Of a stretch of 64,000 nt of DNA, positions 1,673-29,372 are shown in pieces. The first letter of the stretch is position 1, and every line of letters starts with the position of its first letter. This stretch comes from Caulobacter vibrioides. Lineage in GTDB: Bacteria; Pseudomonadota; Alphaproteobacteria; Caulobacterales; Caulobacteraceae. Where the stretch lies: the NCBI RefSeq assembly GCF_002858865.1, contig NZ_PJRR01000009.1, positions 1 to 64,000 on the forward strand. Direction: 5' to 3'. Below the pieces are notes generated by a model. The model was not told the origin of the DNA. It saw only the letters and a program-made list of their open reading frames with translations, and did no database searches. The translations under genes were made by a program, and so were the position numbers.

Positions 1673-3535
1673 ATGATCCGCCTGGCCGCCCTTTCATTTG
1701 TCTTCGCCCTGGCCGTGTCGAGCGCGGCCCTGGCCGACGAAACGCCCCGCCAGATCCGCCTCAATCAGACGGGCTTCGAAGCTCAGGGCCCCAAGCGCGC
1801 CATCCTCGCCGATCCGTCCAAGACGCCGCTGGACTGGACGCTGCACGACGCCGCCGGTGTCGCGATCGTCAAGGGCAAGACCCGTGTCTTTGGCGATGAC
1901 GCCGCCTCGGGCGAGCATGTCCATCAGATCGACCTGTCGGCGTTCCGCAAGGCCGGCGACGGCTATCGGCTGAAGGTCGGCGCCGCCGAGAGCCGGCCGT
2001 TCGCCATCAAGGCCAAGCCCGATGGTCGTCTGACCCGCGCGGCCATGTCCTTCTTCTATCAGCAGCGCGCCAGCGTCCCGATCGAGGCCAAGTATGTCGA
2101 GCGCCCCGACCTTGCGCGACCGGCGGGTCACGCCCCGGACAAGGCGACCTGTTTCGATCAGGCCGACGAACGTGGTCAGGTCTGGCCGGGCTGCGACTAC
2201 ACGCTCGACGCCAGCAAGGGCTGGTACGACGCCGGCGACCACGGCAAGTACGTCGTCAATGGCGGGATCACGGTCTGGACCCTGGTCAACGCCTGGGAGC
2301 GGGCCACGCTGCTCAACCGCCCCGGCGCGCTGGCGGCGCTCGGCGACGGGGCCTTGGCCCTGCCCGAAGCCGGCAATGGGGTTCCGGATCTGCTGGACGA
2401 GGTCCGTTTCCAGCTGGACTTCCTGCTGGCCATGCAGGTCCCAGAGGGCAAGACCTTGCAGGTCCCGGTCGGCAATCAGCGCCCGGGGAACGGCAAGCTG
2501 GCTCTGAGCGCGATCAACGCCTCGGGCATGGCGCACCAGAAGCTGGCCGACCGCTACTGGACCGCCCTTCCCACCGCCCCGGCCGACGACAAGCAGGTGC
2601 GCTATCTCTATTATCCGACCACCGGCGCAACGTTGAACCTCGCCGCCGTGGCGGCCCAGGCCGCCCGCGTCTGGAAGACGATCGACCCGGCGTTCTCGGC
2701 CAAGTGCCTGGAGGCCGCGCGCCGCGCCTTCGCCGCCGCCCAGCGCCATCCGGACATCTACGCCATCGGCCCCTTCACGGGCTCAGGCGGCTATGGCGAC
2801 GGCGACCTGACCGACGAGTTCTACTGGGCCGCCGCCGAGCTCTACGCCACAACCGGCGAGGCGGCCTACGAGCGGGCCCTGCGCGCCTCGCCGCTGTTTC
2901 TGGCCTCGCCGACCGAGGGCGCTGTTCCGACCGGCGACATCGGCTGGAACCGCGTGGGCGCCCTGGGCACGATGACGCTGGCCTTGGTCCCCAATGGCCT
3001 GAAGCCCGCAGAGATCGCCCAGGCCCGCGCCAATCTGGTGGCCACGGCCGGCAAGCACCTGTCGGACGATGTCAGCCAGGGCTACGCCCTGCCGTACGCC
3101 GCCCCCGGCTATCCCTGGGGCTCGAACGCGTCGGTGCTGAACCGCGCCTTCGTCCTGGGCCTGGCCCACGATTTCACCGGCGAGATCGCCTATCGCTACG
3201 GCGCGGTCGACGCGATGGACTATGTGCTGGGCCGCAACCCGCTGGACCAGTCTTATGTCTCAGGCTTCGGCGCGCGGCCGATGCGCCACCCGCACCACCG
3301 CTTCTGGGCAAAGCAGGCCAATCCGGACTATCCCGCCCCACCGTCGGGCGTGCTCTCGGGCGGCCCGAACTCGACCAACATGAGCGATACCGTCGCCAGC
3401 GCCATGAAGGGCAAATGCCGCCCGCAGACCTGCTGGACCGACGACTACCGCGCCTTCACCCAGAACGAGGTCGCCATCAACTGGAACGCGCCGCTGGTCT
3501 GGGTGTCGGCGTTCCTCGACGACACCGCGCGTTGA
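1673..3535 (+). CDS. Glycoside hydrolase family 9 cellulase (secreted)
   Basis: A 620-residue exported enzyme. A signal peptide (about residues 1-22, ending AALADE) is followed by an immunoglobulin-like CelD N-terminal domain (about 25-115) and the (alpha/alpha)6 GH9 catalytic domain. WYDAGDHGKYVVNGG (residues 185-199) holds the conserved Asp pair DAGD. RHPHHRF, near the C-terminus, and NEVAINWNAP hold the remaining conserved residues, with general acid Glu about residue 599. This matches inverting endoglucanases that cut beta-1,4-glucans. GAGGAA lies 6 bases before ATG 1673. Growth on plant polysaccharide suits a Caulobacter-like organism. The exact substrate (endoglucanase, cellobiosidase or other beta-glucan) cannot be read from sequence. 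Confidence 0.9.
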   Translation: MIRLAALSFVFALAVSSAALADETPRQIRLNQTGFEAQGPKRAILADPSKTPLDWTLHDAAGVAIVKGKTRVFGDDAASGEHVHQIDLSAFRKAGDGYRLKVGAAESRPFAIKAKPDGRLTRAAMSFFYQQRASVPIEAKYVERPDLARPAGHAPDKATCFDQADERGQVWPGCDYTLDASKGWYDAGDHGKYVVNGGITVWTLVNAWERATLLNRPGALAALGDGALALPEAGNGVPDLLDEVRFQLDFLLAMQVPEGKTLQVPVGNQRPGNGKLALSAINASGMAHQKLADRYWTALPTAPADDKQVRYLYYPTTGATLNLAAVAAQAARVWKTIDPAFSAKCLEAARRAFAAAQRHPDIYAIGPFTGSGGYGDGDLTDEFYWAAAELYATTGEAAYERALRASPLFLASPTEGAVPTGDIGWNRVGALGTMTLALVPNGLKPAEIAQARANLVATAGKHLSDDVSQGYALPYAAPGYPWGSNASVLNRAFVLGLAHDFTGEIAYRYGAVDAMDYVLGRNPLDQSYVSGFGARPMRHPHHRFWAKQANPDYPAPPSGVLSGGPNSTNMSDTVASAMKGKCRPQTCWTDDYRAFTQNEVAINWNAPLVWVSAFLDDTAR

Positions 3536-3603
3536 TCGCGTCTGGAGCAAGGGATAGCCGCTTGAGTACCAAGACGTCCCGGGCTAAACGGAGCGTCTTC
3601 TGA

Positions 3604-3678
3604 GCGGGCGTAGTTCAGAGGTAGAACGTCAGCTTCCCAAGCTGAATGTCGGGGGTTCGATTCCCCCCGCCCGCTCCA
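3604..3678 (+). tRNA. tRNA-Gly (anticodon CCC)
   Basis: A complete cloverleaf with encoded CCA. The acceptor stem is GCGGGCG paired with CGCCCGC, followed by discriminator T and CCA. The anticodon stem-loop TCAGC-TTCCCAA-GCTGA gives anticodon CCC, which reads GGG. The T-arm contains GGTTCGATTCC. Its 3' 48 bases are the phage attachment core, so this copy is attL and was regenerated by the prophage end. Confidence 0.95.
3631..3678 (+). repeat. attL core (48-bp direct repeat)
   Basis: Identical to 47463-47510. It starts at AGCTTCCCAAGCTGAATG in the anticodon arm and ends with the CCA of tRNA-Gly. The sequences diverge immediately outside on both sides. Confidence 0.95.
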
Positions 3679-3700
3679 AGGATTTCAATGACTTAGAGCC

Positions 3701-4855
3701 CTACTCGCCACCCTCGTCGGACAGGGTTGGGAAAGAGTTGGGAGCGGCTGAGCCGGATTCGTTCCGCGCGATGCGCTCGGCGAGCGCCCGAACGATGGTG
3801 TCTCGGTCGACATATTTCGCCAAAATCCGCTCCACGCGCTTTTCATCCCAGGCCAGGATGTCGGCGATTTCGGGCGCGGTCAGGCCAGCCTTGCGCAGGC
3901 GGGTGGCGAACGTGCCCCGGGCGTCGTGAAGGTGCTTGCCGACGCCGGCCTTGGTCTTGGTGTCGATGACCTGGTGCTCGAGGCCGGAGACCGACCAGGG
4001 CTGGCCTCGGGTGTTCGACAGGACCGTCAAGCAGACCGGCGGCGGCGGCCGCTTCTTCTTGGTCGCGACGGCGACCAGCTCGGCATGGCGCGCGGTCTGC
4101 TGGGCCTTGATCTCCGAGAGGAGGATCTTGGCGTCGGGCAACAGAGGGATCGTGACGGAGCGTCGCCCTTGGCTTTTGCCGGTGGCGACGACGATCGCGA
4201 GATCTCCGACGTGCTTCCAGGTCAGTTTGGCCAGGTCCTCGCGGCGCAGCCCGGTCACGCAAGCCAGCGCGACGATGTAGCCGACCTCTGGCGACGGCGC
4301 GGCCGCGCGATAGGCGGCGACCTCCTCGGCCGTCCAGATCTGATCAGCGCGGTCGGACTTGTAGAGCTGCTCGACGCCGGCGGCGATGTTGATGGCCAGG
4401 CGGCCGCGATCGACAGCCCAGCCCAGGACGCGCGACAGGACCTGCATGCCGTAGTCCGCGGTTCTGGGGCGGTCGGCGTATTGATCGCGCCAGTCCAGGA
4501 CGTCTTCACGGGTTCGGCGATCGTCCAGCAGCTTAAGCGTCAGGCCGCCGATGTCATTGGTGGCCTCGTCGGCGCTGATCCGGTCCAGCCAGCGTCGCCA
4601 CTCGGCTTGGGTGCTGGTCGCCAGCTTCTGGAATTCGGGGGCGGCCTTGTAGGCGGTGACCAGGCCGGCCAGGGTGTCGTTGCGCGGGGCGCGGCGTTGA
4701 TCGACGGCGCGGTTGTAGCTGGCGATGAACTCGGGCGACCCGGGCTGGCCTTCCAGCTTAGGTCCGCCCTTCCAGGCATACCAGTGAACGCGGACAGAGC
4801 CGTCCTTCAGGACCTTGCGGACCCTATTTAGCCCCTTCAGCCGCACGACGGGCAT
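3701..4855 (-). CDS. int: Phage tyrosine recombinase (integrase)
   Basis: 384 residues from ATG 4855, which has GGAAGA just upstream; a start at 4888 would add 11 residues. The N-terminal part (about 1-75) is an arm-type DNA-binding region. A core-binding helical domain follows (about 60-165), then the catalytic domain. Catalytic Arg lies in TGLRREDLAKLTW (about residue 204), the H-x-x-R box in HLHDARG (about 310-313) and the nucleophile Tyr in ILAKYVD (about 348). It catalyses attP x attB recombination at the adjacent tRNA-Gly and reads toward attL, 23 bp from the core, the usual position for a tRNA-targeting integrase. Confidence 0.95.
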   Translation of the reverse strand: MPVVRLKGLNRVRKVLKDGSVRVHWYAWKGGPKLEGQPGSPEFIASYNRAVDQRRAPRNDTLAGLVTAYKAAPEFQKLATSTQAEWRRWLDRISADEATNDIGGLTLKLLDDRRTREDVLDWRDQYADRPRTADYGMQVLSRVLGWAVDRGRLAINIAAGVEQLYKSDRADQIWTAEEVAAYRAAAPSPEVGYIVALACVTGLRREDLAKLTWKHVGDLAIVVATGKSQGRRSVTIPLLPDAKILLSEIKAQQTARHAELVAVATKKKRPPPPVCLTVLSNTRGQPWSVSGLEHQVIDTKTKAGVGKHLHDARGTFATRLRKAGLTAPEIADILAWDEKRVERILAKYVDRDTIVRALAERIARNESGSAAPNSFPTLSDEGGE

Positions 4856-5045
4856 TCTTCCGCTCTCTCCACTCCGCAAGTTCGTCACGCTCTGCCTTTG
4901 GGGTGGTGCTGGTCAAGGGGGCGGGAGTGATCTCGATCTCGCCGCCTGGTCGGATCACGATGCTCGCCGCGCCCAGGCCGTTCTTGGCGAGGGCCTTGAG
5001 TGCGCGGTCAATGTCCGCTTGGCGGGTGGCGGGGGCCCTACTCAC
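4824..5045 (-). CDS. Small early phage protein overlapping int
   Basis: 73 residues from GTG 5045, with the key segment RALKALAKNGLGAASIVIRP then GGEIEITP. Small proteins of this pattern (short helix, then a beta strand ending in a GG-x-I-x-I motif, then a charged tail rich in Glu and Arg) commonly precede the integrase in alphaproteobacterial prophages. The start codon overlaps the stop of the upstream gene (GTGAGTAG), and the 3' end overlaps the start of int by 32 bases, so the genes are translationally coupled. It may be a recombination-directionality factor, but no diagnostic motif proves this. Confidence 0.6.
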   Translation of the reverse strand: MSRAPATRQADIDRALKALAKNGLGAASIVIRPGGEIEITPAPLTSTTPKAERDELAEWRERKNARRAAEGAK

Positions 5046-5508
5046 TTTCGCCCCCGCTCGGAGGCTTTGGCGGCGCGAACATGAAATGGGTCGGCTGCTT
5101 GGTGAGAACGTTCGTAACTGTCGGGTACCCGTGCTCGCGCACCCAGGACCTGTGTCGCTCGCTCCAACCGTAACCGATGAGCCGTTCCCCATCCCGCCAA
5201 AGATCGACCTCGGTTCCGTCTCGAGGGGCCATCGCGATCGGGATCCACGCGCGCTCGATGTTATCCAGAAGACCCAGGATGGTCTCCGGGTTCGCCAGGG
5301 CGATGAACAGAGCGTTGGCCGTGTGCTCTTCGTGCCTGTTGCCGTCTATCACGACGGCTCCACGGACTTCGGCGACGACCGTATCGTCGGTCTCTATCGA
5401 GGCGCCGACCAGCGCTGGGAAGCCCTGATAGTTCGAGAATTCCCGCACGATCCAACGCCCCTTGGTCGCATGTTCGGCGGCTGTGCGGAGGGCTCGATAG
5501 TGGTTCAC
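5038..5508 (-). CDS. Ead/Ea22-like phage protein with DUF551-like C-terminus
   Basis: 156 residues from GTG 5508. The N-terminal half has the Ead/Ea22 pattern (an AAEHATKGRW segment, then an F-I-A-L-A-N-P stretch followed by a helix ending LLDNIE). The C-terminal half, WIPIAMAPRDGTEVDLWRDG then GWSE and HFMFAPPKPP, resembles DUF551, a small domain of accessory phage proteins. Function is unknown. It is cytosolic and lies in the leftward early operon between a membrane protein and the small int-proximal gene. Confidence 0.65.
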   Translation of the reverse strand: MNHYRALRTAAEHATKGRWIVREFSNYQGFPALVGASIETDDTVVAEVRGAVVIDGNRHEEHTANALFIALANPETILGLLDNIERAWIPIAMAPRDGTEVDLWRDGERLIGYGWSERHRSWVREHGYPTVTNVLTKQPTHFMFAPPKPPSGGESE

Positions 5509-5511
5509 GTC

Positions 5512-5721
5512 TCAGCCCTCCCCGCGCTGCAGGGCCCGGCGCAGGATCGCCGCTGCCCCCATAACGAACATCACCACCAGCGTCACTGGCCCAGCTGCTA
5601 CGAGGATAAGATCACGCCGATCAATGAGCTGTGGGCCGTCGGCGCGAGGGTAGGAAGCCAAAACCCACACGAACGCAGAGCATGCAGCCCAAGCGATGGC
5701 GGCCATGTAAAACCGCGCCAT
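5512..5721 (-). CDS. Small membrane protein
   Basis: 69 residues from ATG 5721, which begins two bases past the upstream stop. There are two hydrophobic segments (about residues 5-24 and 39-61) and a short basic C-terminus, so it is probably an inner-membrane hairpin. It is tightly spaced in the leftward early operon. No family is recognised. Possible roles include exclusion or host modification, with no direct evidence. Confidence 0.5.
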   Translation of the reverse strand: MARFYMAAIAWAACSAFVWVLASYPRADGPQLIDRRDLILVAAGPVTLVVMFVMGAAAILRRALQRGEG

Positions 5722-5724
5722 CAA

Positions 5725-6201
5725 TCAGCCCTCCCCGCGCTTCATCGGCGCCGCCCAGGCCGCGCCGGCGCAGATCAGGACGGCGGCGCCCCAGCTGCAG
5801 GTCAGCAGGATCCGGATCGGATCGCCGCCCCGCGTGGCCGCGTCGATCAGGTCGGCCAGGAGCATCAGACCCGCGAAGAAGCCGGCCAGGAGGGCCGAGG
5901 AGCGCAACAGATAGCCGTGCGCGTTCAGCGCCGGCGGCTGGGGCTGCGGGGGCCGATAGTCCGGCCAGGCCCCGAGGTCGCCGCAGCGCCAGTCGTCGAG
6001 GAATCGGCTCCGCTCGGCAGTGTCGTCGATTTTGTCCATGGCGAAGTTGAGCGCATCCAGGGCGGTGCCCAGCCGGCGCTGGTTGGCGCGGATATGCGCT
6101 TTGGCCTGCTGGGTCGTTCGGATCGCTTCGGCAAGGCGAGCGGCGGGGATGATGCGCGGTAACGGCCTAGCCCCGATGGGGGGCGACTTGGTCGGCGGCA
6201 T
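5725..6201 (-). CDS. Hypothetical protein with C-terminal membrane hairpin
   Basis: 158 residues. A charged helical N-terminal half (about 20-75, ARLAEAIRTTQQAKAHIRAN) is followed by a Pro-rich linker and two hydrophobic segments (about 100-118 and 130-150). It therefore looks like a soluble helical domain tethered to the inner membrane. It ends with KRGEG, like the neighbouring small membrane protein (QRGEG), hinting at a shared origin of the two C-termini. Function is unknown. Confidence 0.55.
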   Translation of the reverse strand: MPPTKSPPIGARPLPRIIPAARLAEAIRTTQQAKAHIRANQRRLGTALDALNFAMDKIDDTAERSRFLDDWRCGDLGAWPDYRPPQPQPPALNAHGYLLRSSALLAGFFAGLMLLADLIDAATRGGDPIRILLTCSWGAAVLICAGAAWAAPMKRGEG

Positions 6202-6212
6202 GGGCTGTCCTT

Positions 6213-6602
6213 TCAGGCGACTTGGGCGGGGTGAAGCGGGAGGCGGATTGGCAGTTCGACGCCGGGGATCTGGATGAAGCCCTCGTCGGGGAAGTCCTCC
6301 TCCGAGGCCCGACGGATGAAGGTCGCCGGGATCAGGACCATGTCGCCGCGCTGGACCTGGTCGAGCGGCCGGAGCATCGAGATCCAGGTCCCGTAGTCGG
6401 TGTACTGCTGAGCCAGCTGCAGGGCCTCGCGGGCGGCTTGCTCGTACCGGCTCGCCTGCACCAGGTTCGGTCGGATCTGGTCGGTGCCGGCCTTGAACAC
6501 CTCGGCCTGGGCGATGTGCTGGCGGGCGATCGCGGCGTAGCGCGTGGCCTTGTCCTTCAGGTACGCCAGCAGTTCGTGCGGCGTCGCATTAAGCGGCGGC
6601 AT
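6213..6602 (-). CDS. Hypothetical early phage protein
   Basis: 129 residues from ATG 6602, overlapping the end of the ParB-domain gene by 14 bases. The first 75 residues are helical and rich in Ala and Gln. The second half is strand-rich (GDMVLIPATFIRRASEEDF). There is no signal peptide or membrane segment. It is translationally coupled to the large ParB-like gene upstream, so a shared role is possible but unproven. Not recognised as a known family. Confidence 0.55.
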   Translation of the reverse strand: MPPLNATPHELLAYLKDKATRYAAIARQHIAQAEVFKAGTDQIRPNLVQASRYEQAAREALQLAQQYTDYGTWISMLRPLDQVQRGDMVLIPATFIRRASEEDFPDEGFIQIPGVELPIRLPLHPAQVA

Positions 6603-9168
6603 GGTCTTCCCCCTTCGTGGTGTGGGTGTTGGCCCGCGCGAACGCGGCGATCTCGGTCAGGGCCAGGGCGGCCGGTTTGCCGTAGTCCTTGCCGTGACGG
6701 ATGGGTTGAGCCCGGAAGACGATGCGGGGCCCGTCGCTCTCGGCGCGTTCGAGCAGCCGGTGCGCGGTCGCCCCGCCGGGGTATTTCTCGACGACGTCGC
6801 CCCGGTTCAGCACCAGCAACGGCCCGTTCTTCTTGGCGTAGCTGAGGTCGGTCAGCGCGCCGGCCAGATCGCGATAAAGGTGCTCGGCGTCCGGAAGCGC
6901 GTGGAGTTCATCATAGTTCTTGACCATGAAGTCCTGGACGGCTCGGCCGGCGCGATAGAGCTTGGAGGCAGGATCCTGGCCCTCGGGACGGTTCGGTCCC
7001 TCGACGGCGGCGTGCAGGATCTTGGTGGCCTCGAACCCGTCGCCGGCGCGCTGAAGCAGCCCCATAAGCGAGACCATGGCGTCGACGACATCCAGGCGAA
7101 GAACCTGGTTGATCGCGAGCGAAGCCAGCTCCGAAAGCGACAGATCAGGATCATTCCAGCGAGCCGCTGTGCCGAGGCTCTGCGAAAGGTTCTCGCGCAA
7201 GAGGTCGATGAGCGTCGTAAGCGCTTCATCGTCATCTTCCTCGTCGCGATCCTCCCGCGAGGAGGCGGCGGTGTGTGCGGCGGCTAGCTCCGAGCGAACC
7301 TCCGCCATGCGCGGCGTGACTGCCCGTTGCGCATCGGCGTCGGCGCGGGCGATAGCTTCCTGAGCACGCTCGCGCGCGGTTTCGACTATGGCCGTCCTCT
7401 CTGGGCTGTCCGCATCGGGAAGCCGGTCGGCCGGAGGCCAGCGAAGGAAGGCATTGTGATAGAGCGAGGGCGAGAGCGCGCCGTCGAACATCAGAGGAGG
7501 TAGTCCCGCTAACTCCCTCGCATGGACAATGCTTCTGGCGTTCCTCTGAACCAAGGCCTGCAGCGCGCGGTCGGTGAAGGTCAGATAGGTGTTGACCAAG
7601 TGCGAGCCGTCGCTCCTCGGCTCCGTCACGATGGCGCCCACGCCAAAGCGGCGCAGCTGACGGTCGAGATCGTTTGGATAGTGAGCGGTCAAAATCACCG
7701 CCCGGGACATGTCAGGGTGCGTGCCCTCATCGCTCTGGAAGCGCGTGACGGCCTCTGCAAGCACCAGGAGCAGATCGGGGCTCATGAGGTCGAACGACGT
7801 CTGCCCGAGGCGGGAGGGCTTTTCCGGCGTGTCTTCGGTCGCGTCGGGCGGGTTCAGCCATTCGCTGTGGTAGAGGCCGGTTCGCTTGCAGCGATCGGCG
7901 GCAGCCTGAGATACGGCTTGGCGAACCTGATAGAGGATGTCCGCACGGTTTGCCCCGGAGGTGAGCAGGCCGCGATCCTCCAGCCACTTCATCGTCACAG
8001 GGTGAACGTGAGCGGTGTGCGGCTTGCCGCCACCGGAGGCGCTTCCGCAGCCATATTCGCTAACCAGATCCTGGGGCATCGATGCGCCCAGGTGGTTCTT
8101 CCAGACTAGCGTAGCGGCTTCGTGCAAGCCGTCGGGGGCTGGCCTCCAATGGCAGGCGTCGGCGAGTTCGACGAGCGCCAAGAGGTTGCGGGGGCTGATC
8201 TTGCAAAGGGCGTGCAGAAGCTTCCGTCGAACCCATTCCTCATGGTCGACGTCGCGGCTCCAAGGACCCGGGTCCTCGATGTCGGTTTGCGTCGGTTCGG
8301 CCGGCTCGGGATCCGCCGCCGGCGGTGCCGAGACGCTGACGCTGTCGCGGAGCTGTTCCCAGGTCCACAGACCGCTTTCGTGCAGAGCGATGTTGGCCTG
8401 GGTCGCCTCCGTGGCGACCTTGATCTTGACCTGGACGTCGCGAACGCCCTTCTCCTTGCCCTCCTTGGCTCGGCCGGTGGCGAACGCGATCGCGCGCGCC
8501 GAGAGCTGCGTCTCGGTCTGATAGGCCTTAAGCGCCTGGGCTTCCTCCCATGGCGTCAGGTCCTCGCGCTGGCCGTTCTCGATCAAGCCGACCAGCAGCG
8601 CTTCCGCGAGCGTACCTTCGCGCTCAATGTACGGCAGGCCGTGCGCCAGGGCCTCTGGTAGGCGATCTTCGCCCGCGAGCAACCTGCAGGCCAGGGTTCG
8701 GCGGGTCCCGGCATGCAGCATGCGAACGCCGTTCGCATCGGCCGGATAGAGGACGATCGGCTGCAGCAAACCCTTGGCCGTGACGATCGTCTCGGCGAAC
8801 AGCTCCAGCGGCTCGGCGGCGACCGTCTTGCGCGGGTTCGCCGGGTTCTCGACTATCTTGTCCAGCGGCCAGGTCGGCAGGCCGGCGACCTCCACGCCAA
8901 CGCCATTGGCGCGGTCCAGGGCCTCCAGGCCTGCAATGCCTTCAGCCGAACAGCGGTAGACAGTTACTCCGCCGTCGAGCTCGGTGTTCAGCAGTTCGGC
9001 CTTGACCCAGCTGTTCAGGCCTCGACGGGTGTTCGATGGGTCCTTGCCAAGTGCTTTGGCGACCTGGTCCGCAGTCATTGCCCGCTGGTAGGGGATCTCC
9101 CCCTCGCCACGCAGGAGGCGCAGGACATCCTCAGCCTCAAGAAGGGCCTTGGTAATCAGCGACGTCAT
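6589..9168 (-). CDS. Large ParB N-terminal-domain protein with winged-helix start
   Basis: 859 residues. About residues 5-75 form a winged helix (MTADQVAKALGKDPSNTRRG then LNSWVKAELL). About 98-215 form a ParB/sulfiredoxin-fold domain: PLDKIVENPANPRKT, GLLQPIVLYP, HAGTRRTLACRLL and the ENGQREDLTPWEEA box. The remaining 640 residues are mostly helical and unrecognised, with an acidic stretch (REDRDEEDDDE). Phage ParB-like proteins may bind DNA, act as nucleases or regulate transcription. No ParA-type ATPase is seen in the prophage. One of the dispersed palindromes lies inside the ParB domain (residues 143-150). It could recognise those sites, but that is inference. Confidence 0.75.
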   Translation of the reverse strand: MTSLITKALLEAEDVLRLLRGEGEIPYQRAMTADQVAKALGKDPSNTRRGLNSWVKAELLNTELDGGVTVYRCSAEGIAGLEALDRANGVGVEVAGLPTWPLDKIVENPANPRKTVAAEPLELFAETIVTAKGLLQPIVLYPADANGVRMLHAGTRRTLACRLLAGEDRLPEALAHGLPYIEREGTLAEALLVGLIENGQREDLTPWEEAQALKAYQTETQLSARAIAFATGRAKEGKEKGVRDVQVKIKVATEATQANIALHESGLWTWEQLRDSVSVSAPPAADPEPAEPTQTDIEDPGPWSRDVDHEEWVRRKLLHALCKISPRNLLALVELADACHWRPAPDGLHEAATLVWKNHLGASMPQDLVSEYGCGSASGGGKPHTAHVHPVTMKWLEDRGLLTSGANRADILYQVRQAVSQAAADRCKRTGLYHSEWLNPPDATEDTPEKPSRLGQTSFDLMSPDLLLVLAEAVTRFQSDEGTHPDMSRAVILTAHYPNDLDRQLRRFGVGAIVTEPRSDGSHLVNTYLTFTDRALQALVQRNARSIVHARELAGLPPLMFDGALSPSLYHNAFLRWPPADRLPDADSPERTAIVETARERAQEAIARADADAQRAVTPRMAEVRSELAAAHTAASSREDRDEEDDDEALTTLIDLLRENLSQSLGTAARWNDPDLSLSELASLAINQVLRLDVVDAMVSLMGLLQRAGDGFEATKILHAAVEGPNRPEGQDPASKLYRAGRAVQDFMVKNYDELHALPDAEHLYRDLAGALTDLSYAKKNGPLLVLNRGDVVEKYPGGATAHRLLERAESDGPRIVFRAQPIRHGKDYGKPAALALTEIAAFARANTHTTKGEDHAAA
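8721..8737. repeat. Dispersed palindrome, copy 1 (TGCGAACGCCGTTCGCA)
   Basis: A perfect 17-bp palindrome, extended to 19 bp (8720-8738), within the ParB-domain gene. It encodes ANGVRM on the minus strand. Confidence 0.9.
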
Positions 9169-9686
9169 TCGTCGTCTCCGGTTAGGATCTCGGGGGTTTC
9201 GGTCGGCTCGCCGTCGCGGGGAGCGCGGATCGCCGGCGGTAGGCGAACCGGCTTCTTCAGGACCACGTTGAATGTCACCCAGCTGACGCCCTTCACGAAC
9301 GCCAGGCGTTCACCGGGAAGCTCGCCGCGTTCGCCGGCGGCCTCGTGGATGTAGGCTAGGCCGAAGGGGTCGGGCTCGCCGCCGAAGGGGTCCTTGATGT
9401 GGCGGGCGTCGCTGGCGATCAGCTGGTCGGCGGCTCGGCCGAGGCGGCGCTCGAGCTCCTGGATGACCTTGCATGTGGTCGCGCCGTAAAGGACCGAGAC
9501 CGCTGCGTCGCGGCCCTCGAAGGCGCGATAGAAGATCGAGACCTCGTCGCCCTCTTCGCCAGCGAACCGGATCGACGGCGGCATGGGTTCGGCCGCCGAT
9601 CCGCTGGGGATCAACGTGGCCACGACCTGCCCGCCGAGAGCCTCGAGGCGGTTGGCGGCGTCCGCCAGCGACAGGACCTCGCCCAT
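9165..9686 (-). CDS. Hypothetical early phage protein
   Basis: 173 residues, overlapping the ParB-domain gene start by 4 bases (ATGA), so the two are probably co-translated. The fold looks mixed alpha/beta. A negatively charged C-terminus is preceded by a segment rich in Pro and Arg. No catalytic motif, signal peptide or membrane helix is seen. Position suggests an accessory role to the ParB-domain protein; no family is recognised. Confidence 0.55.
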   Translation of the reverse strand: MGEVLSLADAANRLEALGGQVVATLIPSGSAAEPMPPSIRFAGEEGDEVSIFYRAFEGRDAAVSVLYGATTCKVIQELERRLGRAADQLIASDARHIKDPFGGEPDPFGLAYIHEAAGERGELPGERLAFVKGVSWVTFNVVLKKPVRLPPAIRAPRDGEPTETPEILTGDDE

Positions 9687-9688
9687 GA

Positions 9689-10021
9689 TCAGCCGCGCCC
9701 CATCGGGGTGAGCATGCGAACGGCGTTCGCACGGAAGCGCAGGAGCTCGGCCATGCCCAGGCGCGCGCGCAGGCTGTTGGCGATGGCGCTCGATCCCGCG
9801 AACGGCCGATCCTCGGTCAGGACCCGGGCGGTCAACTCGACCTCGCCGGCGTCGAGCGCGAACCGGCGGCCGCCGGCGAACACGCCGATGACGACGCGGG
9901 GCTCGGCGACGCGGTCGATGACGCAGAGCGCGGCCGAGCGCATGGCCGTTGGCGTGGCCTCGAGCGCGGCCAGGACGTTGGCGACGCGCTCGACCTCGCG
10001 GTCATAAGCGGGGGCGACCAT
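9689..10021 (-). CDS. Hypothetical early phage protein carrying a dispersed palindrome
   Basis: 110 residues from ATG 10021, whose first base overlaps the stop of the XRE gene. It contains a strand-rich segment (PRVVIGVFAGGRRFALDAGE). The C-terminal RANAVRML is encoded by the palindrome at 9715-9731. No recognised domain. It lies between the XRE regulator and the ParB-domain gene in one leftward operon. Confidence 0.5.
   Translation of the reverse strand: MVAPAYDREVERVANVLAALEATPTAMRSAALCVIDRVAEPRVVIGVFAGGRRFALDAGEVELTARVLTEDRPFAGSSAIANSLRARLGMAELLRFRANAVRMLTPMGRG
9715..9731. repeat. Dispersed palindrome, copy 2 (centre G)
   Basis: TGCGAACGGCGTTCGCA within the minus-strand gene at 9689-10021, encoding ANAVRM. 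Confidence 0.9.
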
Positions 10022-10443
10022 CACGCTGCCGCCGCTTCGGAAGCGGTCACCATCACGTCAGCGATGTTGGCCAGTTGCGCCAGAAGATCCGGCCGGAGGC
10101 GCTGGGCGGCGATCGCCAGGCGGACGCCGGCGGTCGAGTCCGTGAGAGCGGCGCCGGCGGCGGGGACGTTGATCACCGCGTCCGGATCCGTGACAGGGTC
10201 GGGCACATCACTGAAGAAGTCGGCGATCGGCGTGTTCAGGAACCTAGCGGCCGCGTAAAGCTTGGAGGCGCTGATGCGGTTCGCGCCGCTCTCGTATTTC
10301 TGGATCTGCTGAAAGGTGAGGCCCAGCGCGTCTGCGAGCGCACCCTGGCTGATGCGCAGGAACCGGCGGCGCGCTCTCAGGCGTCGACCAACGGCGCGAT
10401 CGACGGGATCGGGGGTGTGTTCGGCGGGTGCGTCAAAGGCCAT
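10021..10443 (-). CDS. XRE-family transcriptional regulator (alphaproteobacterial type)
   Basis: 140 residues from ATG 10443, with GGGAGA about 7 bases upstream. The helix-turn-helix region VGRRLRARRRFLRISQGALA then DALGLTFQQIQKYESGANRI (about residues 18-62) is the classic XRE fold common in Caulobacter and rhizobia. The C-terminal half is probably for dimerisation. It is the first gene of the leftward early operon, so it is the product made first from the PL-like promoter and may control early transcription (a role like lambda cII/cIII or Cro). Its own binding site is not identified. Confidence 0.85.
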   Translation of the reverse strand: MAFDAPAEHTPDPVDRAVGRRLRARRRFLRISQGALADALGLTFQQIQKYESGANRISASKLYAAARFLNTPIADFFSDVPDPVTDPDAVINVPAAGAALTDSTAGVRLAIAAQRLRPDLLAQLANIADVMVTASEAAAA

Positions 10444-10557
10444 GGTTCGTCTCCCTCGGGCCTCACGCCGTCCCCCAGACATTCCCTGCGACTAGGAACC
10501 TGGTCGGACCGTCCGAACGACGAGTGGGGCGTCGCGAGTACGGCGTGAGGTTGAGAG

Positions 10558-10587
10558 AAAACGAAACCGTTTCGTTGCCATTGTCAA
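10558..10587 (-). promoter_or_regulatory. Leftward early promoter (PL-like)
   Basis: TTGACA (10587-10582) is followed by ATGGC and then the operator. The -10 region is not canonical (TCGTTT at about 17-base spacing). The assignment rests on its match to the rightward promoter and on its place upstream of the early operon. The leader to the first gene is about 115 bases. Confidence 0.5.
10560..10576 (-). promoter_or_regulatory. Operator OL within the leftward early promoter
   Basis: A 17-bp perfect palindrome, AACGAAAC-C-GTTTCGTT. It starts 5 bases after the TTGACA -35-like hexamer (10587-10582, minus strand). The same 5-base offset and a 14/17 matching operator occur at the rightward promoter. 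It is likely the binding site of the prophage repressor. Confidence 0.7.
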
Positions 10588-10690: not shown

Positions 10691-10996
10691 ATGAAAGTCG
10701 AGAAGGCGCGGATCGGCAGCGGCCAGGGCTACATCTGGACGGGCGCCGCGGTGTTCGCGCTGGCCGGCTTTCTGGCCATGGCCGCCTCTGGCGGCGCAGC
10801 CGAAGCCCTTCCCCTGGCGATCGCACTGGCGACCCTGGGCGCTGGCCTGGTGGCGCTGGGCTTCTGGAAGGGACTGTTCAACAAGATCGAGTTGCGCCTG
10901 ATCGACATTCAGGTCGCATTGACCTCGCCGGGCTCCGCTGAAGCGCCGGCGACGAAGCCTGCAGGAGGCGAGCCGTCCTCGGATTATCTGGGCTAG
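10691..10996 (+). CDS. Small two-helix membrane protein in the immunity region
   Basis: 101 residues from ATG 10691. Two transmembrane segments (about residues 14-33 and 37-60) are joined by a short turn, with a cytosolic C-terminal tail (KGLFNKIELRLIDIQ onward). It is a lone plus-strand gene between the leftward early operon and the repressor gene, and its end overlaps that of the repressor gene tail to tail by 4 bases. This location, separate from lytic operons, is typical of lysogenically expressed genes such as superinfection-exclusion factors. That role is inference; no family is recognised. Confidence 0.6.
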   Translation: MKVEKARIGSGQGYIWTGAAVFALAGFLAMAASGGAAEALPLAIALATLGAGLVALGFWKGLFNKIELRLIDIQVALTSPGSAEAPATKPAGGEPSSDYLG

Positions 10997-11757
10997 TAGC
11001 GGCGCAGCGAGCCGACGACTAGGCCACGGATCCGGACCTCAGCGTCCTCGCCCTCCTCGAGACCTTCGGTCAGGGAAATCGGCGTGCGATAGAGCTCATT
11101 GGTCGAGCGCGGCCACAAGATCACGCCATCGGCGGTCACCTCGACTTGCTTGACCGTGAGCTCTCGCATCCGGCCGGCAAAGCGCAGGCGCTCGACCTCG
11201 ACGATGTCGCCAGTGCGGGGCGTATAGCCGATGTCGATCGCCGAGACGCAATGGACCAGGTCCCCGTCAACGATGCCCAGCAGGTTCACCGAGTCGCCGA
11301 CCACTTGTGAAAGCCATTGTTCGGCGGCGGGGTAACGGGCGTCGCGCACGGCCGGATAGGGCCGAGGCTCAACTTGGGACAGATCGTCGGCGACGAGGAA
11401 CGCGCCCGCCTGCACGCGATCGCGGATGACGAGCTCGCCGACCTGATGGCGGGGGCGAAACTCCCGGATCTCGGCGGTGTGGCGCGGACGCTCCGACTGC
11501 CCCTCTAGCGCGCGGCGGGCCTCGACGAGGTCGTCGAGCGTCAAGCCCAGGGCGGCCGTCAGCTTGCGCTGTGTCTCAGGCCGGAAGATCCCGCGCCGCT
11601 TGCCGCCCTCATAGAGGCCCCAGCCCTGCGCGCTGATACCGGCTTCGCCGAAGGCGTCGGCCGCTTGAGCTTGGCTCCAACCCTTGGAATGACGCAGCAC
11701 GCTAAGCGCCCTGCCCCACAGGACGGCTTCATCATCATCGCTGCGTTCGTTTGCCAT
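10993..11757 (-). CDS. Prophage repressor, S24/LexA-like, self-cleaving type
   Basis: 254 residues from ATG 11757; longer in-frame starts would place the operators inside the coding region. An N-terminal helix-turn-helix (about 14-75, with SKGWSQAQAADAFGEAGISA) is followed by a C-terminal S24 domain (about 110-254). Cleavage-site Ala117-Gly118 (VQAGAFLVADD), nucleophile Ser156 (VVGDSVNLLGIVDGDLV) and catalytic Lys203 (ELTVKQVEV) are all present, as in CI/LexA. RecA-stimulated autocleavage and SOS induction are therefore expected. It should bind the 17-bp operators at 10560, 11813 and 11839, silencing both early operons and regulating itself. Confidence 0.9.
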   Translation of the reverse strand: MANERSDDDEAVLWGRALSVLRHSKGWSQAQAADAFGEAGISAQGWGLYEGGKRRGIFRPETQRKLTAALGLTLDDLVEARRALEGQSERPRHTAEIREFRPRHQVGELVIRDRVQAGAFLVADDLSQVEPRPYPAVRDARYPAAEQWLSQVVGDSVNLLGIVDGDLVHCVSAIDIGYTPRTGDIVEVERLRFAGRMRELTVKQVEVTADGVILWPRSTNELYRTPISLTEGLEEGEDAEVRIRGLVVGSLRRY

Positions 11758-11812: not shown

Positions 11813-11829
11813 TATGAAACGCTTTCGTT
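11813..11829 (-). promoter_or_regulatory. Operator OR2-like, between repressor and cro-like genes
   Basis: Read on the minus strand this matches the perfect operator at 14 of 17 positions (AACGAAAGCGTTTCATA). It overlaps the -35 of the rightward promoter and lies where the repressor promoter should be, so it could mediate repressor autoregulation. Confidence 0.6.
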
Positions 11830-11856
11830 GACAAATGCAACGAAGCAGTTTCGCTT
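11828..11856 (+). promoter_or_regulatory. Rightward early promoter (PR-like)
   Basis: TTGACA at 11828-11833 is followed by AATGC and then an operator, the same layout as the leftward promoter. The -10 region (about TCGCTT) is not canonical. The predicted start of transcription would be within a few bases of the cro-like ATG (11866), so the mRNA may be nearly leaderless. Confidence 0.55.
11839..11855 (+). promoter_or_regulatory. Operator OR1-like in the rightward promoter
   Basis: AACGAAGCAGTTTCGCT matches the perfect OL palindrome at 14 of 17 positions. Its centre is 26 bp from that of the neighbouring operator at 11813-11829. It occupies the -35/-10 spacer of the rightward promoter. Confidence 0.65.
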
Positions 11857-14574: not shown

Positions 14575-14786
14575 ACTACCGCGCCCTGGACGATCGCGAG
14601 CGCTACGTCGTCCACCGCATCCTGCAGAGCGAGGCGATGGGCTCCGCCTGGGCGACCCTTGCCTATCGCGAGGACCAGGCGGCCGCTCTGCGCCTGGCGC
14701 GCCTCGAGCTCGTGTTGTTCGCGGAGGCCGGCGCCGACTTTACCGTCCGGCGTGCGAACGGCGTTCGCATCGAGGACCTCGCATGA
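14571..14786 (+). CDS. Small hypothetical protein carrying a dispersed palindrome
   Basis: 71 residues from ATG 14571 (ATGA overlap with the methyltransferase). Helical, with no recognised domain. The C-terminal RRANGVRIEDLA is encoded across the palindrome at 14753-14769. It ends by overlapping the primase start by 4 bases. Confidence 0.5.
   Translation: MNYRALDDRERYVVHRILQSEAMGSAWATLAYREDQAAALRLARLELVLFAEAGADFTVRRANGVRIEDLA
14753..14769. repeat. Dispersed palindrome, copy 3 (centre G)
   Basis: TGCGAACGGCGTTCGCA within the plus-strand gene at 14571-14786, encoding ANGVRI; 5,038 bp after copy 2. Confidence 0.9.
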
Positions 14787-19435: not shown

Positions 19436-21586
19436 ATGAACGCACCGACCTTCCTGATCCCATCGCCCTACGCGGCGGAGGTCCTGGGTGCGAACGCCGT
19501 TCGCATCAACCACGCTTTCGCCGCTGGCCTTCGCCCGCCACCGAGGATGACGCCGGCGGAGTGGGCGGAGAAGTATCGCGAGTTTCCGGACGATGCGCCG
19601 TTGCCCGGGCCGTGGGTCCATAGCAATGCGCCGTACCTGGTCGAAATCATGGAGGCGCTTTCGCCGCACGATCCGTGCAGCGAGATCGACATCATGAAGT
19701 GCGCCCAGTCGGGCGGATCGGCCTCGGGCGAGAACTGGATCGGCTACATCAGCGACATTGCCCCGGGGCCGCTGATGTACGTTCAGGCGACGATCACGGC
19801 GGCCAAGGATTGGCTGGCCGAGAAGTTCTGGCCGATGGTGGAGGCCACGCGCCGCCTAAACCCCGAAAAGGGCGGGACGGTGATGCCCAAGGGTGCGCGC
19901 AAGGGCGACGGCTCGACCAGCCTGCGCGTGCGCTTCCGGCGGGGCGGCTGGATGCTGATCGCCGGCGCCAACTCGGCCGCCACGCTGCGCCAGCACTCAA
20001 TCCGCTATGTGATCGAGGACGACCTCGATCAGTTTCCGGACAACCTGGACAACCAGGGCTCGCCCGAGGGCATGATCACGGCCCGCCTGCGCACCTACGC
20101 GCGGCAGGGGATCTCCAAGCGCCTCGGGATCTCGACGCCGACGATCAAGGGCGGATCCAAGATCGGCAGGCGCTATCGCGCGAGCGATCAGCGCCGGTTC
20201 TATCTGAAGTGCCGCCACTGCGGATCGCGCTTTGACCCGGTGTTCTCCGATCTCCGCTGGCCGGATACGCGCCCCGACCTGGTCGAGCTCGTTGCGCCTT
20301 GCTGCGGGGTTCCTGTCGCGCACTGGGAAAAGGAGCTTATGAGCCTGGCTGACGGCTGGGTTCCGACGGTCGAGATCAATGGCGAGAAGCCGCCGCGCGT
20401 CCTGGCTGAGCAGGAAATCGCCTATTGGAAGGCGCGCGATCTGCAGGGCCGCCGCCGGGGCTACCACATCACCGGCCTGATCAGCGCGTTCATGACCTGG
20501 GCGCAGCTGGCGGTCGGCTTCGTGGACGCGCAGGGCGACGTCAACAAGCTCAAGACCTGGACCAACCTCGACATGGGGGACGAGTTCGAGGTCAAGGGCG
20601 ATGCGCCGCCGGCGGAGGAGCTCGCCATCCTGCGCGAACAGGATTGGGGCCGCGACCAGGTTCCCTGGGGGCCTTCGATCTTCACGCTTGGCGTCGATGT
20701 CCAGGGCGACGGCCTCTACTTCGAGGGCGTCGGCTGGGCCTATGGATTGGAAAGCTGGGGCTTGGACTTCGGCTTCATCCCCGGCGCGACTGACGTGCCC
20801 GGCGAGGGCGCCTGGGCGATCCTGGAAAAGGTCGCGCAGCGCACCTTCGTCATGCCGGGGGGCAAGGCCTACGGCTACGACCAGATCTGCGTCGACGCTG
20901 GTTACAACACCGAAGCGGCCAAGGCGTTCTGCAAGCGAAGCCCAAAGCGCCTTGCCGTCTTCGGCAGGCCCGGATGGTCCATGCCGATCCTCGGCCGTGG
21001 CCAGGCAATCGCCTATCAGGTCGGCGTGAACAACCGGCGGAAGGCCAAGAAGAAGGCGGGGGACGACGCGCACCTGGTCGGCACCTTCGGTGCCAAGCTG
21101 TGGTTCTACGGCGTCCTGCGTATGTCGATCGCGCACGCCAAGGCGGATGGCGAGGGCCCGTCGCCCATGGGCCTGGTCCACTTCGGCCGAGACGCAACGA
21201 CCGAGTACTTCGAGATGCTGACGGCCGAAAGCGTTGTCACCGAAAAGGTTGGCGGCGAGACCCGGCGCGTCTGGAAGCCCGACCCGGGCCGGCAGAACCA
21301 CTGGCTCGACTGCCGGATCTACAACCGTGCGGCCGCCGAGGCCCTGGCCCTCGGGAGCCTTTCCGAGGCCGACTGGCTGGCCGGCCAGGCCCTGCGCTAT
21401 GCGCCCGCTGACCCTAACCAGGGCGACCTGGTTAGCATGATGAACCGACCGCTTTCGGGGTCGTCACCCGTCGTTTCCCCGACGGCCCCGGAACCCTCCG
21501 CCGCCCCTGAAGCCCGTGGGGCGGCGGAGGTCCCTCGAACGGATCCCGACGGGGTCTACATCGACAGCTCTGACTGGAGGCTTTGA
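19436..21586 (+). CDS. Terminase large subunit, GpA family
   Basis: 716 residues, the usual size for GpA-type terminases. The ATPase domain starts with MKCAQSGGSASGENWIGY (about 86-103, the unusual Walker A region of this family) and has the Walker B-like YVIEDDLDQFP (about 188-198). A zinc-ribbon-like insert follows (CRHCGSRFD then CCGVP, about 259-295). The nuclease domain includes LGVDVQGDGLYFEGVGW and the Asp of ICVDAGYN. It cuts concatemers and drives DNA into the capsid. A dispersed palindrome encodes residues 18-23 near the N-terminus (GANAVRIN). Confidence 0.9.
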   Translation: MNAPTFLIPSPYAAEVLGANAVRINHAFAAGLRPPPRMTPAEWAEKYREFPDDAPLPGPWVHSNAPYLVEIMEALSPHDPCSEIDIMKCAQSGGSASGENWIGYISDIAPGPLMYVQATITAAKDWLAEKFWPMVEATRRLNPEKGGTVMPKGARKGDGSTSLRVRFRRGGWMLIAGANSAATLRQHSIRYVIEDDLDQFPDNLDNQGSPEGMITARLRTYARQGISKRLGISTPTIKGGSKIGRRYRASDQRRFYLKCRHCGSRFDPVFSDLRWPDTRPDLVELVAPCCGVPVAHWEKELMSLADGWVPTVEINGEKPPRVLAEQEIAYWKARDLQGRRRGYHITGLISAFMTWAQLAVGFVDAQGDVNKLKTWTNLDMGDEFEVKGDAPPAEELAILREQDWGRDQVPWGPSIFTLGVDVQGDGLYFEGVGWAYGLESWGLDFGFIPGATDVPGEGAWAILEKVAQRTFVMPGGKAYGYDQICVDAGYNTEAAKAFCKRSPKRLAVFGRPGWSMPILGRGQAIAYQVGVNNRRKAKKKAGDDAHLVGTFGAKLWFYGVLRMSIAHAKADGEGPSPMGLVHFGRDATTEYFEMLTAESVVTEKVGGETRRVWKPDPGRQNHWLDCRIYNRAAAEALALGSLSEADWLAGQALRYAPADPNQGDLVSMMNRPLSGSSPVVSPTAPEPSAAPEARGAAEVPRTDPDGVYIDSSDWRL
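19489..19505. repeat. Dispersed palindrome, copy 4
   Basis: TGCGAACGCCGTTCGCA near the start of the large terminase gene, encoding ANAVRI; 4,736 bp after copy 3. Confidence 0.9.
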
Positions 21587-23310: not shown

Positions 23311-25365
23311 ATGACGCGTTCGGCTCTTCCCGCGCGAGCGGAAGACCGTCGCAGTGCGCCTCCTGATCACCACGGAACGCGCCTCGCGACCTTCAACGGC
23401 TCGAGCTACGACGCCGCCAACCGGACGGTCGAAGCCGTTCTCTCGGTCGGCGCTCGTGTGCGGCGCTGGTTCGGTTTCGAAGAACTATCCATGGACGCCC
23501 GCGCGGTCGACCTGGCGCGCGTGGCCATGGGCCAGGTGCGGCTGCTCGACAGCCACAACCAGTGGGACATCGACGCCGTGCTGGGCGTGGTCGTCACCGC
23601 TCGCGTGCAGAACGGCCAGCTGGTCGGCACTCTGAAATTCGCGGACACCGAACGCGCTCGCATCGCCGAGGGCATGGTGTCTCGCGGCGAACTGACCGGG
23701 ATCTCGATCGGCTACAACATCCGCGCCTGGCGGCTGGTCGAGATCGACGCCAACGACAACGAGATCTGGCAGGCCTCCGAATGGGAGTTGCTCGAGGCCA
23801 GTCTCGTCTCCGTACCCGCCGACCCGAACGCCGGGGTTCGATCAGCGGCCGCCCCTCCCGGCTCCAACCCTTCTCAACCGAACGAGGATCCCGACATGGC
23901 AACCCGCAACCAGCCGGGCGCCCCGGCCGCCCCGGCTGCACCGGCCCCGGCCGAGCCCGCCGCCCGCGCTCAAACCCCGCCGGCTGCGCCGGCTCCCGCC
24001 GACCCGGCCGCTGTTGCTGCACCGGAAGTTCGCGCCGCCCCGGCCGCCCCGGCTGCTCCCGCTGCCTCGGCCGGCGATGCGAACGCCGTTCGCATGTCGG
24101 GCGTGGACGCCATCGACTTCACCGAGACCGCTCGCTCCTTCGGCTTCGAGGGCGCCCAGGTCCGGAACTGGGTTGAGAACATGACGCCCCAAGCGGCCCG
24201 CGACGCCCTGCTGTCGGCCGCCGCTGAGCGCCAGCGCGCCGCCGCGCCGCTGGCCCCGGCGATGTCGGCTGGCCGGGTGACGGTTGACGAGCGCGACACC
24301 ATGCGTTCGGCCATCACCTCGGCCCTGCTGCACCGCTTCAATCCGTCCAACGAGCTCAGCGAGCCGGGCCGCGAATTCCGGGGCATGAGCCTCCTGGAAA
24401 TCTGCCGCCGCAACCTGGAGCGCAACGGCGAGCGCGTGGCCGGGCTCGGCCGCCGCGAGATCGCCGATCTCGCGCTGCGCCAGCACTCCACCAGCGACTT
24501 CCCGAATATCCTGGGCAACGTCACCGGCCGGACGCTGCGCGGCGCCTATGAAGCCTCGCCGCGCACTTTCACCCAGTGGCAGCGCCGGGCTACCGCGCCG
24601 GACTTCAAGCAGGTGACGCGCCTGCAGATGGGCGGCGCGCCGTCCCTGCTGGCCGTGCCCGAAGGCGGCGAGTTCAAGATGGGCACCATCGGCGAGGCCA
24701 AGGAGGTCTATGCCCTGGCGACCTACGGCCGCCGCTTCTCGGTGACGCGTCAGACGATCATCAACGATGATCTGGACGCCTTCACTCGGATCCCGACGCT
24801 GTTCGGCCGCGCTGCCGCCGACTTCGAGAGCGACGCGGCCTACGCCCCGCTGATCTCGAACCCGAACATGGGCGACAATATCGCGCTCTTCCACGCCAGC
24901 CACGGCAACCTCGCCGGCGCCGGCGCGGCGATCAGCGAAACGTCAGTTCAGAACGCGGAAATCGCCTTTGGCGCTCAAACTGGTATCGAGGGCCGCCCGA
25001 TCAACGTCTTGCCCCGCTGGATGATCGTGGCGACCAAGGATCGTGTCCCGGCGCTAAAACTCCGCGGTTCCACGGGGTCCCAAGCGGCGAATTCGCAGCC
25101 GAACACCACCAACGTTTATCAGAACGCCTTCGACGTGATCGTCGAGGCCCGCCTGTCTCGTGCTTCGGGCGCGGTCCCGTGGTTCATGGCCGCCGACAAC
25201 GCCCAGATCGACACGATCGAGTACTGCTACCTGGAAGGCGACGACGGAGTTTACCTCGAGGAGCGTAATGGCTTCGAGGTCGACGGCATCGAGTACAAGG
25301 CCCGCCTGGACTTCGCGGTGAAGGCCATCGACTACCGTGGCCTCTACATGAACCCGGGCACCTAA
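23311..25365 (+). CDS. Prohead protease-major capsid protein fusion
   Basis: 684 residues. Residues about 25-175 form a herpesvirus/HK97-type prohead protease, with catalytic His82 (LLDSHNQWD) and Ser132 (GISIGY). A linker rich in Ala and Pro follows (about 203-258). The rest (about 310-684) is an HK97-fold/gpT-like capsid domain, with TLRGAYEASPRTFTQW and ALATYGRRFSVTRQTIINDD. Met196 (23896) has GAGGA 8 bases upstream, so a separate scaffold-capsid product of 489 residues may also be made. The palindrome at 24078-24094 falls near the linker end. Self-cleavage would free the mature capsid. Confidence 0.9.
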   Translation: MTRSALPARAEDRRSAPPDHHGTRLATFNGSSYDAANRTVEAVLSVGARVRRWFGFEELSMDARAVDLARVAMGQVRLLDSHNQWDIDAVLGVVVTARVQNGQLVGTLKFADTERARIAEGMVSRGELTGISIGYNIRAWRLVEIDANDNEIWQASEWELLEASLVSVPADPNAGVRSAAAPPGSNPSQPNEDPDMATRNQPGAPAAPAAPAPAEPAARAQTPPAAPAPADPAAVAAPEVRAAPAAPAAPAASAGDANAVRMSGVDAIDFTETARSFGFEGAQVRNWVENMTPQAARDALLSAAAERQRAAAPLAPAMSAGRVTVDERDTMRSAITSALLHRFNPSNELSEPGREFRGMSLLEICRRNLERNGERVAGLGRREIADLALRQHSTSDFPNILGNVTGRTLRGAYEASPRTFTQWQRRATAPDFKQVTRLQMGGAPSLLAVPEGGEFKMGTIGEAKEVYALATYGRRFSVTRQTIINDDLDAFTRIPTLFGRAAADFESDAAYAPLISNPNMGDNIALFHASHGNLAGAGAAISETSVQNAEIAFGAQTGIEGRPINVLPRWMIVATKDRVPALKLRGSTGSQAANSQPNTTNVYQNAFDVIVEARLSRASGAVPWFMAADNAQIDTIEYCYLEGDDGVYLEERNGFEVDGIEYKARLDFAVKAIDYRGLYMNPGT
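24078..24094. repeat. Dispersed palindrome, copy 5
   Basis: TGCGAACGCCGTTCGCA (19 bp with flanks) near the end of the protease-capsid linker, encoding ANAVRM; 4,589 bp after copy 4. Confidence 0.9.
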
Positions 25366-29359: not shown

Positions 29360-29372
29360 CCCCCGCGCCCCA

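Follow-up and report, generated by a model that had tools for sequence, protein, structure and literature searches.

An orphan ParB protein and dispersed palindromes in a Caulobacter vibrioides prophage and in related phages

Introduction

Which protein reads a short palindrome that recurs along the whole length of a prophage? The question is raised by a 64,000-nucleotide stretch of Caulobacter vibrioides DNA (assembly GCF_002858865.1, contig NZ_PJRR01000009.1, positions 1 to 64,000; here called the window), in which an integrated prophage, 3631 to 47510, is bounded by identical 48-bp repeats. The prophage carries the 17-bp palindrome TGCGAACGSCGTTCGCA about every 4.8 kb and encodes the following ParB-domain protein.

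6589 to 9168, minus strand: orphan ParB gene, 859 amino acids, ATG start, a real open reading frame (ORF)

An original prediction, made from the letters of the window, named this protein as a plausible reader of the dispersed sites and imagined a ParA-independent system that organizes or silences DNA. We report here that relatives of the window ParB come with dispersed palindromes of their own, and we weigh what the pairing may do for the phage.

Results

The palindrome occurs in the window in eight exact copies and one copy with one mismatch, all within the prophage. The sites, together with one degenerate candidate, are as follows (no strand assigned).

8721 to 8737: site 1, exact, in codons of the ParB domain (DANGVRM)
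9715 to 9731: site 2, exact, in the ORF 9689 to 10024, two genes upstream of ParB
14753 to 14769: site 3, exact
19489 to 19505: site 4, exact, near the start of the large ORF 19436 to 21586 (terminase, as inferred from its position); AACC at the orthologous place in record G427
24078 to 24094: site 5, exact, in the ORF 23311 to 25365
29373 to 29389: site 6, exact, overlapping a possible ATG start at 29372 (ATGCGAACG); AACC in record G422
33979 to 33995: site 7, exact; AACC in record G422
38728 to 38744: degenerate site in the slot of the 9.8-kb gap, with two mismatches in the 15-base core; may be due to chance
43767 to 43783: site 8, exact, between listed genes
47146 to 47162: site 9, one mismatch

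The positions of the first two copies, one inside the ParB gene and the other two genes upstream at 9715, are as originally predicted. The gaps between the nine sites are 994, 5038, 4736, 4589, 5295, 4606, 9788, and 3379 bp, and the gap over attP in the circular form is 5407 bp. When up to three mismatches were allowed, the palindrome was found at 10 places, against a mean of 0.44 and a largest value of 3 in 100 shuffles. In the 3.97-Mb host genome, all nine sites with at most one mismatch lie in the prophage and none elsewhere. A chance origin of the array was rejected on the basis of the shuffles, Markov simulations, and a reversed-letter control. All but one of the nine sites fall within listed genes. 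They occupy three different reading frames, which places the constraint on the DNA; a repeat at the protein level was rejected for the same reason.

Prophages and virus contigs, picked mostly by their ParB relatives, were then scanned for palindromes without guidance by a motif (arms of 7, centre of 0 to 3), with 20 order-2 Markov simulations per record. The top palindrome family reached at least three copies in 35 of 39 records, while the simulations never gave more than two and mirror repeats gave one or two. As a positive control, the scan was run on canonical ParB loci, where it recovered the GTTTCAC arm of chromosomal parS. Further counts refer to 36 array records, from which G399b, G431, and G433 (duplicates of G156, G183, and G377) and G432 (no array) were omitted; G405, G407, G409, and G419 (apparent duplicates of the window, G131, G171, and G235b) and G416 (88 kb) were also left out. 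Several of the records (e.g., G413, G414, G415, and G417) are closely related, and the counts are therefore not independent. With up to one mismatch allowed, each of the 36 records contains between 4 and 16 sites (median, 9). A site lies less than 1.5 kb from the ParB start in 32 of them, against a mean of 16 and a largest value of 26 in 2000 random placements. Spacing is more regular than expected at random (P < 0.05) for 25 of 35 records, with a median coefficient of variation of 0.39 and mean gaps mostly of 3 to 6 kb; since related records share some inherited positions, a combined P value was not used as independent evidence.

Two further records were noted in these scans. In G399 (IMGVR_UViG_2814123113_000001), two distinct array-carrying ParB regions adjoin (about 1 to 51700 and 51701 to 95665), each with its own set of sites, and these are apparently tandem prophages. 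A record labelled as a Listeria phage (OR846716.1, 10000 to 59000; L354) contains five copies of the parS arm GTTTCAC over 29 kb and may be host DNA.

The association was also followed from the sites to the protein. Scans of all viral contigs with three spellings of the site returned 45, 31, and 54 stretches. The reversed-letter control returned 1 stretch against 45; it is uninformative for GCGAGCG and GCGCGCG, which read alike when reversed. Every contig of at least 30 kb with at least two exact copies encodes a ParB relative (18/18), as do 32 of the 46 distinct contigs of at least 30 kb with at least one exact copy; for comparison, a tblastn search with the window ParB matches 9 of 50,697 phage records. 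Among 390 Caulobacteraceae genomes, the exact site is present in 11. Four of these have at least two copies (G000, G156, G650, and G525), all with ParB in the same region. Of the seven single-copy genomes, four (G131, G235, G659, and G538) have ParB on the same contig within about 40 kb, with G131 and G235 carrying arrays of a related spelling, and three (G537, G320, and G631) have no ParB near the site.

Each record has one dominant spelling around a one-base centre, namely GCGAACG, GCGAGCG, GCGCACG, GCGAACC, or GCGCGCG. Perfect palindromes of these types (69, 61, 42, 32, and 6, respectively) are nearly confined to genomes of their own type, and the reversed control gives 0, 0, and 1 for the three informative types. 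Sites with unequal arms number 58 against 204 with equal arms. AACG has switched to AACC in concert at orthologous places, i.e., at the equivalent of window position 19489 in G427 and of 29373 and 33979 in G422, with flanks that are 61 to 69% identical. One dominant spelling and concerted switching are what would be expected from a single reader per genome. Such a reader has to occur in every array record. Among the genes of the window, ParB has homologs in 35 of the 36 array records, compared with 15 for the XRE regulator, 11 for CI, and 8 for Cro; the ParB figure is partly by construction, as the records were chosen by ParB, and the low figures for the other three are not. The proposal that ParB reads the dispersed palindromes is thus well supported by the two-way co-occurrence, the single dominant spelling, the concerted switching, and the site near the ParB gene, and on these sequence comparisons ParB very probably binds the palindrome directly.

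The window protein is a Spo0J/Noc/KorB-type orphan ParB that carries an extra winged helix at its N terminus. Pfam ParB_N (PF02195) matches residues 101 to 171 (27.4 bits; cut-off, 26.3). The AlphaFold model has a mean pLDDT (predicted local distance difference test) score of 73, and the structure prediction that had been proposed as a check gave confident models of the winged helix (residues 33 to 88), the ParB domain (about 98 to 200), and a helix-turn-helix (HTH; 206 to 277). The predicted combination of a winged helix and a ParB fold in 859 residues thus stood, while the estimate of about 640 unrecognized residues was too high, with about 580 lying beyond the core. These comprise two winged-helix-like modules (about 309 to 445 and 464 to 555), the first ending in YHSEWLN, followed by a helical C terminus of low confidence. 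A 541-residue relative is modelled better (pLDDT, 83.5); its single winged-helix-like module ends in YxTxWLN, and it also has a long helix. At least one copy of a motif of this kind is present in most ParB relatives, as found with a regular-expression search, and the C-terminal WLN module has no tblastn match in the 50,697 phage records.

A profile of 11 relatives matched Spo0J (3.3e-36), Caulobacter ParB (1.5e-33), Noc (3.9e-30), and KorB (2e-10) in the PDB. Foldseek was led by Noc, ParB, and Spo0J, with Noc as the top match, and VIA-align placed KorB first (Z, 14.2; root mean square deviation, 4.3; 173 residues), tied with ParB and Noc; the VIA-align comparisons scarcely probed the C terminus. 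The N terminus is similar to winged helices of the MarR type. The score with Pfam HTH_ParB (16.3) is under the cut-off of 22.6, although the HTH fold is confident in the AlphaFold model, and the NCBIfam Noc model TIGR04285 gives 53 bits against a cut-off of 315. Pfam at an E value of ≤1 found neither a C-terminal dimerization domain, the C-terminal helices being of low confidence, nor the KorB domain. Pfam likewise found no nuclease or methyltransferase domain in the window ParB. A plain nuclease of the early phage programme was rejected on the lack of such a domain and on the clear CTPase-type ParB fold in the PDB profile and Foldseek comparisons.

Box II for binding of cytidine triphosphate (CTP) reads GERR in 29 of 36 proteins, GTRR in the window (residues 154 to 157, with T155 in place of the glutamate), and GHRR in two, the ParBs of G412 and G423; box III, EN/ANxQR, is mostly preserved across the 36. 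Judging from these motifs, the GERR glutamate, a residue linked with hydrolysis of CTP, may have been lost repeatedly in the family. When the equivalent glutamate of Caulobacter ParB is changed (E102A), the resulting clamp is described as shutting without reopening and spreading over about 26 kb in Escherichia coli (PMC8367383).

As a separate observation, AA or AAA ends are common in these ParBs, and 12 of 40 end in AA, a possible degron of the ClpXP type. In the window (6589 to 6602), the AA-end stretch overlaps the start of the next gene, which may be its cause.

The original prediction saw no ParA-type ATPase in the prophage. The ParA-family domain AAA_31 was absent from all 34 virus records searched, including G405, which matches the window, and was found in 14 of 14 control genomes; PF01656 was not searched. 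The ParA-binding motif (L/F/I)G(K/R)G(L/F/I) was absent from all 36 proteins. Comparison of domains and motifs thus supports ParA independence of this ParB.

The prophage ends and the genes around ParB are as follows.

3631 to 3678, plus strand: attL, 48-bp repeat over the 3′ end of a tRNA-Gly gene
47463 to 47510, plus strand: attR, 48-bp repeat identical to attL
3701 to 4888, minus strand: tyrosine integrase, on the same strand as ParB and downstream of it
9165 to 9686, minus strand: ORF overlapping the ParB start, with a homolog in 7 of 36 array records
9689 to 10024, minus strand: small ORF of the ParB operon, carrying site 2
10021 to 10482, minus strand: XRE-type HTH regulator, first gene of the leftward operon
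10562 to 10574, no strand assigned: candidate CI operator CGAAACCGTTTCG of the leftward (P_L-like) promoter, a motif chosen by eye
10993 to 11754, minus strand: CI-like repressor (transcriptional repressor by PHROGs, weak)
11815 to 11853, no strand assigned: two degenerate copies of the candidate CI operator (11815 and 11841)

On one strand, from upstream to downstream, lie XRE, the ORFs 9689 to 10024 and 9165 to 9686, ParB, more small ORFs, and the integrase, and several neighbouring genes of this leftward operon overlap by a few bases. The same arrangement, with ParB on the integrase side, upstream of the integrase on the same strand and no more than about 11 kb away, holds for 16 of the 19 records that have an integrase match (exceptions, G423, G428, and G433). 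Acidovorax phage Aval (L352), from another class of host, has the gene layout of the window, with a large ParB-like gene (3510 to 6371) in the equivalent place between repressor and integrase; its palindrome family is weak (TGCACAC, three copies).

A motif other than the palindrome stands between CI and Cro, where no copy of the palindrome lies, and the palindrome was rejected as a CI operator for this reason. By a post hoc argument, the candidate CI operator before the integrase-side operon weakly suggests that CI represses this operon and that the ParB gene may be off in the lysogen.

Discussion

How might such a protein work? ParB dimers are described as loading at a palindrome, closing with CTP, and sliding for kilobases (PMC8367383, PMC11790492). 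An orphan, ParA-independent ParB clamp would recognize the 17-bp palindrome with its own HTH and would load in a CTP-bound state at about nine sites along the whole phage genome. Each clamp would slide a few kilobases from its site, so that, with a site every 3 to 5 kb, essentially the entire phage genome would be covered. The coat could protect, organize, or mark phage DNA, or time phage genes, during early lytic growth or establishment. CTP-dependent loading with genome-wide coating appears likely, and the account as a whole, a ParA-free ParB clamp that loads at phage-wide palindromes and coats the genome, is on balance probable. The T155 substitution, by analogy with E102A of Caulobacter ParB, suggests that the window clamp may be unusually persistent.

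When the coat would act is a more tentative matter. ParA independence, one part of what was first proposed for the window, holds up; the other part, a DNA-organizing or silencing role, is tentative, and silencing of the lysogen becomes less likely with the integrase-side operon lying behind an apparent, if weak, CI operator, an arrangement that favours an early role. Use of the coat once CI repression has ended, as the phage becomes established or begins lytic growth, is something we would put at somewhat less than an even chance.

Several results weigh against the coating account or parts of it. With TIGR00180 (ParB/RepB/Spo0J), the window ParB scores 50 bits, under the cut-off of 58.45; among six relatives, G156, G171, G398, and G377 pass and G401 and G399a fail. 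Given this score and the GTRR box, use of CTP by the window ParB should not be assumed, and a recent survey reports ATP and GTP binders within the ParB fold (PMC12704722). The arrays of G420, G423, and G426 are weak and become visible once mismatches are allowed, and G432 encodes a ParB-like protein without the winged helix (the match begins at the ParB domain) and has no array. The remaining 14 of the 46 contigs of at least 30 kb with at least one exact copy encode no ParB relative, nor do 8 of the 10 shorter contigs (fragments) with at least two copies, the other 2 encoding one. Nearest neighbours share the site type in 22 of 32 cases for the HTH, 21 for the terminase, and 20 for the winged helix, and GCGAACC is found with very different HTHs; the HTH thus predicts the spelling no better than the terminase does. 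On the side of regulation, the candidate CI operator motif is about as frequent in the window as expected by chance, and when the regions upstream of ParB in 11 phages were searched without guidance, no shared operator emerged.

Other explanations of the array can be set against the same evidence. ParB at dispersed sites might act as a long-range silencer in the manner of KorB, repressing distant phage promoters, possibly together with a partner bound at the promoter, for instance the XRE protein encoded in its own operon. KorB is the best structural match by Z score, tied with ParB and Noc, and is described as acting from distal operators as a sliding clamp (PMC11790492); on plasmid RK2 its partner in long-range repression is KorA, which locks the clamp at promoters. 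Eight of the nine window sites, however, lie within listed genes rather than at promoters, and the XRE, CI, and Cro counts given above reveal no conserved partner, which leaves this an unlikely reading. Equally unlikely is that clamps every few kilobases serve packaging or self-marking, i.e., set phage DNA apart from that of the host or guard it against nucleases or restriction. The coverage is even, with 5.4 kb across attP in the circular form, the host genome outside the prophage has no sites, and a role for ParB-like proteins of phages in guiding the modification of DNA as it is packaged has been suggested (PMC6536676); against it, the ParB gene is on the integrase side and not beside the terminase, and the Pfam search that found neither nuclease nor methyltransferase domain counts here as well.

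Partition without a motor of its own, with ParB borrowing the host ParA, would agree with the presence of a ParB core and with a loading site close to the ParB gene. The prophage is integrated and has att sites, and the ParA-binding motif is missing from all 36 proteins; partition of this kind is very improbable. Hardly credible, finally, is a separate immunity repressor that uses the palindromes as operators, with ParB a bystander. A single phage repressor reading dispersed operators does exist, in MrpR and the SPBRE sites of phage SPbeta (PMC10516654), but SPBRE stands at promoters and the window sites do not, a different motif occupies the interval between CI and Cro, and every other window regulator is limited to at most 15 of the 36 array records (the ParB tally being partly due to selection).

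The coating account has likenesses in several known systems. KorB of plasmid RK2 is a ParB-family clamp on a mobile element with dispersed palindromic operators and the same core fold; its operator has a one-base S centre, and RK2 carries KorA and the ParA-like IncC beside it. KorB is shorter and acts at promoters, whereas the window ParB has no ParA, evenly placed sites inside genes, and extra winged-helix modules. Noc, the top Foldseek match, is a ParA-independent ParB paralog with sites dispersed over the replicon; unlike Noc, the window ParB is phage-borne, is modelled with a winged helix at its N terminus, where Noc has a membrane-targeting helix, and scores far below the TIGR04285 cut-off. 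Chromosomal ParB/Spo0J with parS has a similar core domain and HTH, and its palindromic sites also lie close to the gene, whereas the phage system lacks ParA, the ParA-binding motif, and a C-terminal dimer domain detected by Pfam, and its array is phage-wide and not confined to one region. SopB of the phage-plasmid N15 is a phage ParB with several inverted-repeat sites, IR1 to IR4, as described in PMC7205306, but N15 has SopA and is kept as a plasmid, whereas the window prophage is integrated and without ParA. MrpR resembles the window ParB as a single phage protein with many scattered identical sites (PMC10516654), and differs in being a recombinase-fold repressor that acts at promoters, not a ParB. 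In function, the window ParB would resemble KorB or Noc most closely; we claim membership in neither family.

Orphan ParBs are common on prophages. A 2025 survey mentions the prophage ones without DNA targets, and the string "palindrom" appears nowhere in its main text (PMC12704722). We found no description of such a phage ParB array in the open-access literature, preprints being outside the scope of the search.

The ParB target comes with the protein, and at least five spellings of it exist, so that specificity can be tested directly, as can binding, loading, and sliding. The array records provide natural protein-site pairs for ParB specificity, along with a natural substitution at the CTP-hydrolysis glutamate. 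They also raise the question of why an integrating phage needs a genome-wide array for a clamp. More speculatively, a whole lineage of integrating tailed phages might use a ParA-free ParB coat as phage-specific chromatin, active once CI repression is lifted, that would mark, protect, or organize their DNA against the host background. A phage family that has a DNA clamp normally used in chromosome segregation, without the motor and with docking sites throughout its genome, suggests self-coating of viral DNA.

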